Notes under the pieces: model-generated
The model's database searches: none
What the model saw: the letters and a program-made list of their open reading frames with translations, nothing else
Told to the model about the DNA's origin: nothing
Program-made: the position numbers and the translations under genes
Source: a virus
DNA: 24,183 nt
Virus record (IMG/VR): IMGVR_UViG_3300025085_000186
Location: 1-24,183 of that record
Reading direction: 5' to 3' (one strand)
Shown: piece after piece, positions 3,297 to 20,318 of the stretch
Layout: every line of letters begins with the position of its first letter
How positions within the stretch are numbered: the stretch's first letter is position 1

Positions 3297-3345
3297 TATA
3301 TAAATAATAAGTATATCGTAAGAACTCTATACTTATTATGTTATA
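3297..3345 (-). repeat. 49-bp leader repeat, copy 2
   Basis: Identical over 49 bp to 1670-1718. It contains hairpin D. Confidence 0.85.
3304..3339 (-). other. Leader hairpin D
   Basis: 12-bp perfect stem, 3304-3315 with 3328-3339, and a 12-nt loop containing GTTCTTACGA on the minus strand. Same sequence as hairpin B. Confidence 0.8.
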
Positions 3346-3704: not shown

Positions 3705-3785
3705 CGGTTTGATGGTGTGTTATATAAAAGCAATAGGTAGTTCGTAAGAACTTACTACCTATTACTTGTTATAACCACTAGTTAG
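3695..3785 (-). repeat. 91-bp leader direct repeat, copy 1
   Basis: Matches 3918-4008 over 91 bp with one mismatch (GATGGTG against GATAGTG). It spans half of the dyad, the linker, hairpin E and the stop region of the upstream gene. Together with copy 2 it brackets the 37-codon gene. Confidence 0.9.
3732..3763 (-). other. Leader hairpin E
   Basis: 10-bp perfect stem AATAGGTAGT with ACTACCTATT (3732-3741, 3754-3763). The loop holds GTTCTTACGA on the minus strand and can form an inner 4-5 bp stem. Confidence 0.8.
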
Positions 3786-3927: not shown

Positions 3928-3954
3928 CGGTTTGATAGTGTGTTATATAAAAGC

Positions 3955-3986
3955 AATAGGTAGTTCGTAAGAACTTACTACCTATT
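3955..3986 (-). other. Leader hairpin F
   Basis: Same stem and loop as hairpin E: stem 3955-3964 with 3977-3986. It follows the stop of the 217-residue gene by about 25 bp. Confidence 0.8.
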
Positions 3987-4011
3987 ACTTGTTATAACCA
4001 CTAGTTAGTGA

Positions 4012-4665
4012 TTAGAATGGAAGGCCAACAGATTTTACTGCTTTAGCAGCAATGTGTGTATTTGCAGCATCTACAGGATCATCTGCATCAAGCTCTGCTT
4101 CAAGCCGTTCTTGCTCAATCATGAGCATCTCAATGATCTCTTCAAGATCAAGGCCATTGCCTTTCACAATGTCCATCATTTTGTCTACGACAAGCTGCGG
4201 AGTAACCTTTAGGTTAGGATTTGGTCCAACATTGGACACTTCTGCTTTAGCAGTAGGTTGTTCCGTTGGTTCAGCTTTAGCTGTAGTATCAGCTTCGCTG
4301 TCTGGATTGGCAGCTTTACGCATTGCAGCTTTTAAAGCTGTAAGACTAGAACCTTTGAACTTGCCTTTGGCAATGAAGTCACGGCACTCTTTTTCGTTTT
4401 CAACGAACCAAAGAGCCTCAGAACGGCGGCGTTTATCAATACCATTGATCCCATGAGTGACCAAGGTTTGACGACTGATTTGACCACTATCCATCGGAGA
4501 TGAGGCTTTCAACTTCTGTAGAAGTTTACCCAACCGAGTATCAAAGCCATTGGCTTTTACAGTCTGTTTCAACGAGTTGAGTTGACGCCACATTTTACCA
4601 AGGGCTTTGCCCTCTGCAATATCGTCACCGATTGAGGTAGTTTGGTTTTGGTTTGGAGTTGCCAT
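4012..4665 (-). CDS. First gene of the minus-strand block, hypothetical (217 aa)
   Basis: The product has 217 residues. The N-terminus is rich in Asn, Gln and Thr. The middle has a basic INGIDKRRRSEALWFVENEK stretch followed by a Lys/Ala helix. Next comes a low-complexity Ala/Thr/Glu linker, then an acidic C-terminal helix pair (LDLEEIIEMLMIEQERLEAE). The KRRRSEALWF region recalls early proteins of other marine phages, function unknown. The start at 4665 has SD AAAGGA and lies downstream of hairpin G and a minus-strand TTGACA box, so it is probably the first gene expressed leftward. A dyad core lies inside the coding sequence at 4224-4237. Confidence 0.8.
   Translation of the reverse strand: MATPNQNQTTSIGDDIAEGKALGKMWRQLNSLKQTVKANGFDTRLGKLLQKLKASSPMDSGQISRQTLVTHGINGIDKRRRSEALWFVENEKECRDFIAKGKFKGSSLTALKAAMRKAANPDSEADTTAKAEPTEQPTAKAEVSNVGPNPNLKVTPQLVVDKMMDIVKGNGLDLEEIIEMLMIEQERLEAELDADDPVDAANTHIAAKAVKSVGLPF
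4223..4241 (+). promoter_or_regulatory. Dyad element in opposite orientation, inside a gene
   Basis: On the plus strand GGTCCAACATTGGACACTT. The core is perfect, but the asymmetric flanks match the element as it reads on the minus strand elsewhere, so this copy is inverted relative to the others. It codes for residues SNVGP of the 217-residue protein. Confidence 0.6.
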
Positions 4666-4699
4666 GGTTAGTTTTCCTTTTATCTATTCTGTTTATATG

Positions 4700-4741
4700 A
4701 GAGAACTTATATCTCTCGTAAAGAACGAGATATAATTCTCT
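4700..4741 (-). other. Leader hairpin G
   Basis: AGAGAA (4700-4705) and TTATATCTC (4707-4715) pair with TTCTCT (4736-4741) and GAGATATAA (4727-4735), a 15-bp stem with a one-base bulge. The loop on the minus strand is GTTCTTTACGA, close to hairpins B, D, E and F. It lies before the first minus-strand gene, with no gene upstream to terminate. Confidence 0.75.
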
Positions 4742-4749
4742 TTATAAAC

Positions 4750-4778
4750 TAAGTAGAATAGAAAAAAGGGTTTGTCAA
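4750..4778 (-). promoter_or_regulatory. Candidate leftward promoter
   Basis: Perfect -35 TTGACA on the minus strand (4778-4773), then 17 nt to TACTTA (4755-4750), a poor -10. It lies about 85 bp upstream of the first minus-strand gene. The -35 is convincing and the -10 is not. Confidence 0.35.
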
Positions 4779-4796
4779 GTGGGTTGGTTTTGGTGA

Positions 4797-6178: not shown

Positions 6179-6787
6179 ATGGGAATTTTAAGTAAAGCAG
6201 CTAAAGCCGCTGCAAAGGCCGCAAAGGCCGCAAAAGCAGCGAAGGCTGCAAAAGCTGCTGCTGCAGATAAAGCTAAACCAAAAACTAAAACTAAAGCTAA
6301 AGAATCTCCTAATACAAAGTATGTAGGTTCTGGCCCTATTTCTGAAGTAATTGAGGGTAAGAAAACTAAAACTAGAGCTGCTACTCAAGGTAAAAATAGA
6401 GTACCTGAAGCTGAAAAGAAAGATCAAGCTAAGAAAGCTACTGGTCGTATTACTGCAAAGAATACAAAGCCGGGAGCAAAACCATTAAGCATGAGTAAAT
6501 ACCGTTCCTTTACAGATGCACAACGTGCTAAAGCTAAAGCACAAGCAGGTATTGATTTCCGTGCAGGTAAAATTACTAAAGCAGAGCGTGATACTATTGT
6601 AAAACGTATTGATGCTGCTAATGCTGCTGAAGTAGATAAAGGCGGTCGTAAAATGGCTCAAGGTAAAGCCGATAAAAAACCATTTAAAGGATATACTCCT
6701 AAGTCTCCCTTTAATAAAGGTGGAATGGCTAAGAAAAAAGCTACTGCATATATGTATGGTGGCATGGCTAAAAAGAAAAAGAAGTAA
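6179..6787 (+). CDS. Lysine/alanine-rich histone-like phage protein (202 aa)
   Basis: The product has 202 residues and is strongly basic. Residues 1-30 begin MGILSKAAKAAAKAAKAAK and continue as AAK repeats encoded by imperfect GCAAAGGCC-like DNA repeats, resembling histone H1 tails. The middle has a helical segment (SFTDAQRAKAKAQAGIDFRA). The C-terminus carries FNKGGMAKKKATAYMYGGMA and a lysine run. The KGGM motif recurs at the end of another gene here (9214-9654), and the N-terminal MGxLSKAxK matches the giant virion protein. A DNA-condensing or packaged basic protein is a reasonable guess, not shown. SD: AAAGGA. Confidence 0.75.
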   Translation: MGILSKAAKAAAKAAKAAKAAKAAKAAAADKAKPKTKTKAKESPNTKYVGSGPISEVIEGKKTKTRAATQGKNRVPEAEKKDQAKKATGRITAKNTKPGAKPLSMSKYRSFTDAQRAKAKAQAGIDFRAGKITKAERDTIVKRIDAANAAEVDKGGRKMAQGKADKKPFKGYTPKSPFNKGGMAKKKATAYMYGGMAKKKKK

Positions 6788-6903
6788 TGTCCAATAAAAT
6801 TAAATCAGATGCAAAGCGTTTATCAGATAGTCAATTCAAAGCTATCTATAAACAAACTAAAACTCAAGCATTAAAGAAAGCTGGACTAAAACCTATTAAG
6901 TAA
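6787..6903 (+). CDS. 38-residue basic peptide
   Basis: A 38-codon frame, MSNKIKSDAKRLSDSQFKAI onwards, ending KKAGLKPIK. It is basic and mostly helical by eye. The ATG overlaps the TAA of the previous gene (TAATG), which explains the lack of its own SD. The codon pattern fits its neighbours. Not recognised. It might assist the basic protein upstream. Confidence 0.6.
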   Translation: MSNKIKSDAKRLSDSQFKAIYKQTKTQALKKAGLKPIK

Positions 6904-6911
6904 TTCAACCC

Positions 6912-6942
6912 TTCCCGTTGTGTTGATCGTGCATAGCGGGAA
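6912..6942 (+). other. Hairpin after the basic-protein cluster
   Basis: TTCCCG (6912-6917) pairs with CGGGAA (6937-6942), extendable by two pairs including G-U, with a loop of about 15 nt. No T-run follows, so it is not a canonical terminator. It separates the basic-protein genes from the DUF1127 leader. Confidence 0.4.
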
Positions 6943-6968
6943 TGCATTAATAGCTGTAGTTATTTAAA

Positions 6969-7025
6969 CTTGAACATGGTATAACTATCTTATGGTTAAA
7001 CATAAGGAGACATACCATGTTCAAG
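6969..7025 (+). promoter_or_regulatory. Start-codon hairpin of the DUF1127 gene
   Basis: CTTGAACATGGTAT (6969-6982) and ATACCATGTTCAAG (7012-7025) form a perfect 14-bp inverted repeat. The right arm contains the ATG at 7017. Inside is a second hairpin, CTTATG (6989-6994) with CATAAG (7001-7006), which takes in part of the SD AAGGAG. In mRNA this would hide start codon and SD at once. As DNA it could instead be an operator. Confidence 0.8.
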
Positions 7026-7157
7026 AATATTATTAAAACAATACAACAAGCACAAGAACGTAGAGTGGCATACTGGCAGCTACAACATATGTCAGATAAA
7101 GCTCTTAGAGATATAGGAGTAACACGTGGCGAAATCAGGCAAAAAGTCTACCGTTAA
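7017..7157 (+). CDS. DUF1127-family microprotein (46 aa)
   Basis: A 46-codon frame begins MFKNIIKTIQQAQERRVAYW. The C-terminal part, LQHMSDKALRDIGVTRGEIR, matches the DUF1127 (YjiS-like) signature L-x-x-x-S/D-x-x-L-x-D-I-G-x-x-R-x-x-I. DUF1127 proteins are common in alphaproteobacteria, and one from Rhodobacter (CcaF1) is known as an RNA-binding protein affecting sRNA maturation and RNA turnover. Here it may alter host or phage RNA metabolism; that is inference. SD AAGGAG lies 7 nt before the ATG but within an RNA structure. The last 32 bp overlap the next gene. A host-derived gene is likely. Confidence 0.85.
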   Translation: MFKNIIKTIQQAQERRVAYWQLQHMSDKALRDIGVTRGEIRQKVYR

Positions 7158-7314
7158 TGCAGCAGGTAATTATACTAAGCCTACTATGCGTAAACGTATT
7201 GTTGCTTCAGTCAAAGCCGGAGGCAAAGGAGGTAGGCCCGGTCAGTGGTCTGCCCGTAAAGCACAGCTTGTTGCCTCTCGTTACAAGAAGGCAGGAGGGG
7301 GATACACTACATGA
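7126..7314 (+). CDS. Conserved-type small basic phage protein (62 aa)
   Basis: The product has 62 residues, with VNAAGNYTKPTMRKRIVASV, then KAGGKGGRPGQWSARKAQL and ending ASRYKKAGGGYTT. The GGKGGxPGQWSARKAQ motif recalls a short family widespread in marine phages (possibly DUF5872-like). Function is unknown; the charge suggests binding to DNA or RNA. The GTG start at 7126 is supported by GGAG about 7 nt upstream, inside the DUF1127 gene, so the two overlap by 32 bp. Its stop overlaps the next ATG (ATGA). Confidence 0.8.
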   Translation: MAKSGKKSTVNAAGNYTKPTMRKRIVASVKAGGKGGRPGQWSARKAQLVASRYKKAGGGYTT

Positions 7315-19278: not shown

Positions 19279-20148
19279 ATGGAAAACCAAATAGTAGAGG
19301 TACAAGAACCGCCCAAGTCAATGATGATGCAACGTAAGAGTAGAGTGCATGAACGTGTAGAGGAAGACGAAAAAGAACTACGTGAATTAATGGCAGAACG
19401 TGAAGGCGCAGAAAAAGAAGCTGAAGTACAGGCCAAAGAAGATGCAGAGCCAGAAGGTGCAGAAGAAAAGAGTTATAAGAAACGCTATGCTGATTTACGT
19501 AGAGGATCACAAAAAGCAAAGGCAGACTTAGAGGCTCGTATTACTACATTAGAGTCGCAGTTAAAACAAAGTGCTGCACAAGAAATTAAACTACCTAAGT
19601 CAGATGAAGACATAGATGCATGGGCAAGCCAGTATCCAGATGTAGCTGCTATTGTTGAAACTATTGCTATTAAGAAAGCACGTGAGCAACAAGAAGGTTT
19701 ACAGGAACGTATTAAAGAAATTGATACATTACGGGAAAGTGCATCACGTGAGAAAGCTGAAGTAGAATTACTTAAAGCGCACCCTGACTTTGGAGAGATA
19801 CGTGATAGTGATGAGTTCCATGAGTGGGCAGAAGAACAGCCTAAGTGGGTACAAGAAGCACTATACGAAAATGATAATGATGCAAGGTCTGCAGCACGTG
19901 CTATTGATTTGTACAAAGCAGACATGAACATTAAAACAAAAAAACCTAGCAGTAATAAAGAAGCTGCTAAGTCGGTGAATACTCGTAATACACGTAGTCA
20001 ACCAGACGCTACATCTAACAATACTAAAATGTCTGAGTCACGTGTTAATAAAATGTCTACTAAAGAATACGAGAAACATCAAGACGAGATCATGGAAGCT
20101 ATTAGAAAAGGTGAATTTATTTACGATATTTCTGGTAGCGCACGATAA
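19279..20148 (+). CDS. Scaffolding protein (289 aa)
   Basis: The product has 289 residues, highly charged and almost entirely helical. It has long Glu/Lys/Ala runs (residues about 30-130), a coiled coil in LEARITTLESQLKQ, the segment AWASQYPDVAAIVETIAIKK, then HPDFGEIRDSDEFHEWAEEQ and a basic C-terminus. Composition, length and position directly before the major capsid gene fit a podovirus scaffold that guides capsid assembly and leaves before maturation. The HPDF...S..F..W..EQP pattern recurs in scaffolds of related marine phages. SD AGGAA. No protease motif is seen. Confidence 0.82.
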   Translation: MENQIVEVQEPPKSMMMQRKSRVHERVEEDEKELRELMAEREGAEKEAEVQAKEDAEPEGAEEKSYKKRYADLRRGSQKAKADLEARITTLESQLKQSAAQEIKLPKSDEDIDAWASQYPDVAAIVETIAIKKAREQQEGLQERIKEIDTLRESASREKAEVELLKAHPDFGEIRDSDEFHEWAEEQPKWVQEALYENDNDARSAARAIDLYKADMNIKTKKPSSNKEAAKSVNTRNTRSQPDATSNNTKMSESRVNKMSTKEYEKHQDEIMEAIRKGEFIYDISGSAR

Positions 20149-20154
20149 AAAGAC

Positions 20155-20182
20155 TTGACAAGTCTTAAATAAACAATATAAC
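20155..20182 (+). promoter_or_regulatory. Candidate promoter for the capsid gene
   Basis: TTGACA (20155-20160), 16 nt, TATAAC (20177-20182): a good sigma-70-like pair just after the scaffold stop. The -35 sits within a palindrome, AGACTTGACAAGTCT. Confidence 0.5.
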
Positions 20183-20192
20183 TATATACAAC

Positions 20193-20318
20193 AGGTTTAA
20201 CACAGCCCCCTACTTATTTGGACTACCTGTGTTAAATCTACTTTCACAAATATAAATAGTTTTAACGACTACCTAATGTCTTTGGCCCGTTGTGTAAAAG
20301 GTCGGCCAACTTTTTACA
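20193..20318 (+). promoter_or_regulatory. Structured leader of the major capsid gene
   Basis: The 250-bp gap has two hairpins. TTTAACACAG (20196-20205) with CTGTGTTAAA (20227-20236) is a perfect 10-bp stem that extends by three pairs. TGTAAAAGGT (20293-20302) with ACTTTTTACA (20309-20318) has one G-T pair and a 6-nt loop. The rest of the gap, to 20398, holds no gene and ends in AAAGGA, the SD. Confidence 0.6.

Follow-up and report, generated by a model that had tools for sequence, protein, structure and literature searches.

A likely promoter-embedded translational lock, predicted at the DUF1127 gene of HMO-2011-type marine phages

Why does the start codon of a 46-residue phage protein lie inside a perfect inverted repeat, and in which RNA would such a hairpin act? 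The locus belongs to a 24,183-bp virus record, IMGVR_UViG_3300025085_000186, which was analysed as a whole and is called the window below. An earlier note on this DNA had proposed that a start-codon hairpin keeps a DUF1127-type protein under tight translational control. Our analysis indicates that the arrangement is real, conserved and regulatory, and that it likely works as a promoter-embedded translational lock.

The inverted repeat and its surroundings

A repeat search places the two arms of the outer stem on the plus strand at 6969-6982 (CTTGAACATGGTAT) and 7012-7025 (ATACCATGTTCAAG). The perfect 14-bp repeat reported by the earlier note is there: the arms are complementary at 14 of 14 positions, and the right arm spans the DUF1127 start codon (ATG at 7017) and codons 2 and 3. 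The nested 6-bp hairpin was also recovered, from sequence and fold, as CTTATG (6989-6994) and CATAAG (7001-7006) on the same strand; its right arm overlaps the Shine-Dalgarno (SD) sequence AAGGAG, read at 7004-7009 (plus strand). The folding check that the note had called for came out in favour of the hairpin. Region 6930-7060 folds at -33.6 kcal/mol, compared with a mean of -16.3 (sd 2.89) for 200 shuffles (z -6.0), and 0/200 shuffles were as stable as the native sequence. The duplex between leader and start region is the strongest among the 35 window genes. The inverted repeat was found again, exact, in 34 IMG/VR stretches, and no Rfam match was obtained in the window at gathering thresholds.

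The window was assigned to the HMO-2011-type marine phages because its large terminase shares 82% identity with those of Roseobacter phages CRP-1 and CRP-345 and 80% with that of Puniceispirillum phage HMO-2011. The 46-aa protein (7017-7157, plus strand), taken from the ORF listing, is a DUF1127 member as the note had it, matching Pfam PF06568 with an E value of 3.5e-10 and 39.9 bits at a curated cut-off of 23.3. Its gene shares a strand with the terminase, portal and coat genes and is positioned ahead of all three. The next gene, phrog_17747 (7126-7314, plus strand), overlaps it by 32 nt and is followed by closely packed genes. On the upstream side, a 38-aa ORF (6787-6903, plus strand; below the 40-aa listing limit and read from the sequence) overlaps the preceding gene's stop codon and leaves a gap of 113 nt to the DUF1127 ATG. 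Among 78 leaders, the nearest same-strand upstream ORF (about 35 aa or longer) ends 44-147 nt before DUF1127, with a median of 92. The interval separating the upstream gene from DUF1127 might have held a terminator, an idea that was set aside: this stretch folds in some relatives, not uniformly, and its conserved core behaves like a promoter element.

For comparison, 158 loci were collected in addition to the window by a protein-based search (alignment query), from isolates and by pattern searches. A DUF1127 match is present in 158 of these 159 sequences, HMO-2011 itself being the one without. Four loci with a short upstream (L084, L089, L112 and L118) were dropped to give 91 distinct upstreams, and exclusion of five leaders from other lineages (L047, L049, L050, L051 and L122) left 86 distinct leaders. 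Of the 142 contig loci checked, 140 match HMO-group proteins in two or more places, the exceptions being L122 and L165. The counts carry a bias, as the repeat or arm pattern itself served as the query that brought in L004-L037 and L132-L158; the repeat-independent subset comprises 67 leaders from 20 of the 22 clusters.

As evidence against its proposal, the earlier note had named relatives that keep the gene and lack the repeat. Such relatives exist (SIO1, ICBM1, P12053L, phiM19, L122 and L165), all of them outside this phage group; within it we found none. In SIO1 (AF189021.1), a DUF1127-like frame without a hairpin lies at 20004-20135, where no feature is annotated, upstream of the ribonucleotide reductase gene. 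A host origin of the leader was rejected as well: of 25 cellular contig loci, 24 were readable upstream (L169 has no start); six of these carry TATAAY at some point in the scanned stretch, and by eye none shows matching anatomy.

Promoter elements beside the left arm

The left arm overlaps, and ends inside, a candidate extended -10 element, TGGTATAAC (6977-6985, plus strand), which has the form TGNTATAAY. All 86 leaders have a -10-like hexamer (TATAAY or TGTAAAAC) at -62 to -27; as first anchored, these are 75 TGNTATAAY, 6 TATAAY and 5 TGTAAAAC. The same letters account for the frame ATG GTA TAA noted earlier in the left arm. It is present at 6976-6984; its reading as a regulatory two-codon frame did not stand, because A-TGN-TATAA always reads ATG NTA TAA. 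As an upstream-ORF attenuator it was also rejected since it has no SD and begins with GTG or TTG in some relatives.

A conserved upstream element, GCATAGCGGGAATGC (6931-6945, plus strand), is an imperfect palindrome and a possible activator site. Its core, with the consensus RTAACGGGGTTGCA, was found by pattern in 77 of the 86 leaders, the other nine giving no match. The distance from core to -10 is 46-49 bp in 77/77 (47 in 58 of them), unlike the distance from core to ATG, which varies between 76 and 104. Six of the 77 spacings rely on a proximal TAAAAC as the -10; these six were anchored by the spacing and cannot test it. The same six leaders also have a better upstream TGATATAAC, and RNA from there would retain the hairpin. 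L001, L139, L132 and their relatives carry a second TGNTATAACTAT 15 nt before the proximal -10; should this be a promoter, transcripts from it would include the hairpin in closed form. By pattern, a single late-strand copy of the core precedes DUF1127 in the window, CRP-1, CRP-235, CRP-738 and CRP-3, looser single matches lie on the opposite strand in CRP-235 and CRP-3, and none was found in CRP-603 or HMO-2011.

No -35 element is recognisable for the putative DUF1127 promoter, which is also absent from the output of a generic sigma-70 hexamer-pair scan. The coat gene suggests that these phages use TATAAC as a -10: its TATAAC is preceded by TTGACA, at a distance of 16 bp, in the window, CRP-1 and HMO-2011; the window copy (20155-20182) is the only TTGACA-N15-18-TATAAY of the record. 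The canonical TTGACA-N16-TATAAC is followed, within 20155-20239, by a hairpin with 13-bp arms in the long coat-gene leader. An occurrence of TGGTATAAT inside terL (11779 in the window; 42663 in CRP-1, L159) was discarded as coding sequence.

TGNTATAAY at -62 to -20 is rare: 1 of 35 genes in the window, 2 of 58 in CRP-1, 1 of 56 in CRP-235, 1 of 57 in CRP-738 and 0 of 54 in CRP-3. DUF1127 is among these genes in the first four genomes, and its CRP-3 counterpart has a plain TATAAT; in CRP-1, the second gene with the motif is not sequestered. When genes are ranked by a simple leader/start duplex, DUF1127 comes 1st in the window, 3rd in CRP-1, 2nd in CRP-235, 25th of 57 in CRP-738 and 10th of 54 in CRP-3. 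Duplex strength by itself is not distinctive; its combination with the promoter is, and TGNTATAAY together with sequestration was found only at DUF1127 in these five genomes or records.

The transcription start is predicted at about 6992 (plus strand), 12 nt past the first T of TATAAC and inside the left arm of the nested stem, where SD accessibility peaks (see below). The 14-nt left arm would then lie upstream of +1. The gene's own mRNA should therefore lack it, and the lock would be confined to read-through RNA. In this respect the analysis does not support the reading of the earlier note, in which the hairpin would act in the mRNA of the gene itself.

Further repeats occur elsewhere in the window. 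The palindrome TCCAAYRTTGGA, possibly a repressor or replication site, is present nine times in the early minus-strand region (784, 1632, 2218, 2725, 2977, 3264, 3687, 4225 and 4951), with several copies just ahead of gene starts and at least one inside a gene; in 50-kb stretches of other genomes, CRP-1 has one copy and CRP-235, CRP-738, CRP-603, CRP-3 and HMO-2011 have none. Repeated modules in which TATAAC is joined to a long hairpin (arms of 12-14 bp), some nearly identical, precede several early minus-strand genes (1677-1712, 2750-2819, 3304-3339, 3728-3780 and 3951-4003). The leader of an early 217-aa gene (4665-4790, minus strand) forms a long hairpin, at -42 kcal/mol over 190 nt, whose left arm follows TTGACA and whose pairing reaches AAAAGG near the start. 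It may be a second promoter-in-stem case.

Pairing and predicted folding across the leaders

The left arm differs between groups, being CTTGAACATGGTAT in the window, TATAACTATCTC in CRP-1, CTACTCCT in the L101 group and ATGTTCAT in CRP-603; in CRP-235 the arm, AACTCTCCTTAGT, is located upstream of the -10. Native arm/start duplexes average -17.1 kcal/mol versus -11.2 kcal/mol for swapped arms, a result matched by 0 of 20,000 permutations over the 22 clusters. L123 and L090 are clear exceptions, ranking 15th and 16th of 22 in the arm swap. The Phe codon at position 2 (TTT or TTC) co-varies with the left arm, and 10 of 26 aligned window-type leaders show the compensatory A-U/G-C exchange there. 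In these 26 leaders, the co-variation score of the outer stem exceeds that of 500/500 shuffles and of every slid control, and G-U wobbles at other positions retain pairing (24 of 362 cells); two pairs of the outermost region are lost in half of them. The sequences, the conserved geometry and the co-variation, like the folding predicted below, were all obtained by computation. Conservation beyond chance and the compensatory changes favour what was originally suggested, a start-codon hairpin that keeps translation under tight control, and the predicted lock appears to be maintained by topology, not by sequence, across the HMO-2011-type phages.

In predicted folds of read-through RNA, SD and AUG together are less than 0.4 unpaired in 86/86 leaders. 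Cutting the RNA at the predicted +1 raises their accessibility in 86/86 and that of the SD in 84/86 (the exceptions being CRP-207, L043, and L135), and the median SD value moves from 0.20 unpaired to 0.76. In 84 of the 86, the majority of pairing partners are located before +1; CRP-603 and CRP-2 differ, their arms extending across +1 with partner fractions of 0.42 and 0.46. The repeat-independent leaders behave similarly, with the SD less than 0.5 unpaired in 67/67. Among the 61 of these that were not re-anchored, the SD is more open in the local RNA in 60 and most partners are upstream in 59. Start-region accessibility is 0.19 with native and 0.43 with shuffled upstream parts; single clusters differ modestly from their shuffles, 11 of 22 falling at 5/100 or below.

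We also moved the RNA start along representatives of the 22 clusters. On average the SD remains 0.21-0.28 accessible for starts as far as TATAAY+4; the mean then climbs to 0.41 at +8 and 0.61 at +10 and has its maximum, 0.67, at +12 after TATAAY. Starts 10-12 nt after TATAAY are those expected of sigma-70, and the complementary arm therefore appears to end about where transcription should begin. In four of the 22 clusters the SD is never 0.5 unpaired for any start, in L123, L032 and L073 it reaches 0.5 well before +1, and CRP-235 (L040) opens later. The local RNA of the window itself has its AUG only 0.07 unpaired at 37 C in prediction, held in a weak AUGGU/ACCAU helix (MFE about -4.9), and this residual helix is an open weakness of the lock model.

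Mechanism, rival explanations and known systems

We favour, with a probability of about 0.7, a promoter-in-stem switch in which read-through RNA is locked and locally started RNA is open. Same-strand transcription across the 38-aa ORF (6787-6903) would supply the read-through RNA. Such transcripts from upstream genes would carry both arms, and their helix would bury the SD and start codon and leave DUF1127 untranslated. The gene's own promoter, consisting of the upstream element and the extended -10 without a good -35, would sit inside the left-arm region; RNA begun at about 6992 would lack most of the complementary arm, expose the SD and be translated. Production of DUF1127, and possibly of the genes that overlap downstream, would thus be restricted to times when this promoter fires, probably at the onset of late expression. 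Promoter activity, the exact +1, read-through, the translation block, its timing and the benefit to the phage are what we infer from the computed features.

The hairpin could instead act within the gene's own mRNA, controlled by a ligand, by autogenous binding or by temperature. It is very stable and conserved, and some leaders have the second TATAAC 15 nt upstream, from which RNA would retain the arm. We consider this unlikely, since the -10 stands at a fixed spacing from the upstream element, in or beside the left arm, and since arm and loop sequences vary among clusters with no obvious conserved protein site. Temperature control, which the earlier note had allowed for, fares poorly: the start region of the read-through RNA is predicted to remain closed from 5 to 65 C (SD in the window 0.004 unpaired at 5 C, 0.043 at 37 C and 0.159 at 65 C). 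A thermometer was rejected on these grounds and such a function of the hairpin is unlikely.

Cleavage of read-through RNA at the hairpin by RNase III or RNase E, with processing rather than a ribosome block as the main effect, is quite improbable in our view. Either enzyme could plausibly act on a long perfect stem, and more hairpins occur in the intergenic regions of this phage, yet the arms follow the SD/ATG and no fixed cleavage site. A shade less probable still is that the repeat serves as a DNA operator over the -10 for a dimeric repressor. Perfect palindromic arms do flank a promoter; however, the arm sequence differs by cluster, the distance from -10 to ATG is variable, the wobbles noted above preserve pairing in RNA, and the constant feature is complementarity to the SD/ATG region. 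An AT-rich -10/discriminator could also pair with a purine-rich SD by chance, which would produce the TATCTC versus GGAGATA match that recurs in many leaders. Chance pairing would not explain the permutation result, the compensatory changes or an arm lying upstream of the -10 in CRP-235 and L117, and we regard it as the least credible of these explanations.

What the guarded protein does is less clear. CcaF1 of R. sphaeroides, a DUF1127 family member, binds RNA (PMC10253847), members from Agrobacterium and E. coli bind the kinase PhoR (PMC12501420), and RNA binding was not seen for Salmonella YjiS (PMC11707872). CcaF1 and the other proteins belong to the same Pfam family as the phage protein and are cellular. 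Because both RNA and PhoR binding have been reported, the activity of the phage DUF1127 cannot be read off, and its description as a host RNA-metabolism protein is uncertain. In a FastTree phylogeny (no support values shown), the phage proteins group apart from the cellular ones, except for that of the MAG contig L165, which groups with the phage proteins and may itself be viral. The tree thus gives no support to a recent capture of a host gene.

The principle of such a lock is already known and its marine-phage setting is new. DUF1127, promoter and hairpin are unmentioned in the main text of a paper on HMO-2011-type phages (PMC9038755, term search), and searches of 5.39 million PMC papers, a set in which subscription literature is largely missing, brought up no title or abstract describing such a device outside T4-like phages. 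More tentatively, and somewhat short of an even chance, HMO-2011-type phages may have independently evolved a T4-style lock with varied arms and one activator-dependent, DUF1127-specific promoter marking late entry. If so, a way of timing expression that is familiar chiefly from T4-like phages would have had a separate origin in a marine group that is ecologically dominant, the lock would guard a family of debated function, and early DUF1127 synthesis would be implied to harm infection. The case offers a defined candidate promoter with a predicted start and, in the cultured CRP roseophages, a test system; a promoter inside an anti-SD stem is a sequence-independent signature to seek in other phages.

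Incoming RNA sequesters the start region of the IS10 and IS50 transposase genes, and their own transcript does not; these are transposons with different promoters. The T4 late promoter consensus serves as a further point of comparison, and the phage leaders differ from it in having TGNTATAAY plus an upstream element. A cellular DUF1127 gene, duf1127_1 of S. meliloti, is likewise controlled via its leader RNA, as predicted here, with uORF-dependent and presumably Rho-dependent transcription attenuation (PMC12218461). Unlike for the phage leader, no promoter inside a start-codon stem is described for it. A full-length reporter plasmid for it accumulated mutations (PMC12218461), which fits a need for tight DUF1127 control and proves nothing here. 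The closest parallel is found in T4, where longer upstream transcripts bury the SD/AUG of e (lysozyme), soc, 49 and I-TevI (PMC3014915), as predicted for the 86 leaders. In gene e, late promoters in the region encoding the 5' strand give a short open mRNA (PMC3014915), and sequence, geometry and spacing place the putative DUF1127 promoter in the corresponding region. The phages and the gene are unrelated to those of T4, and the present lock is known from sequence and prediction. By analogy, the DUF1127 leader would thus work like the T4 gene e lock without being a homologous member of it.
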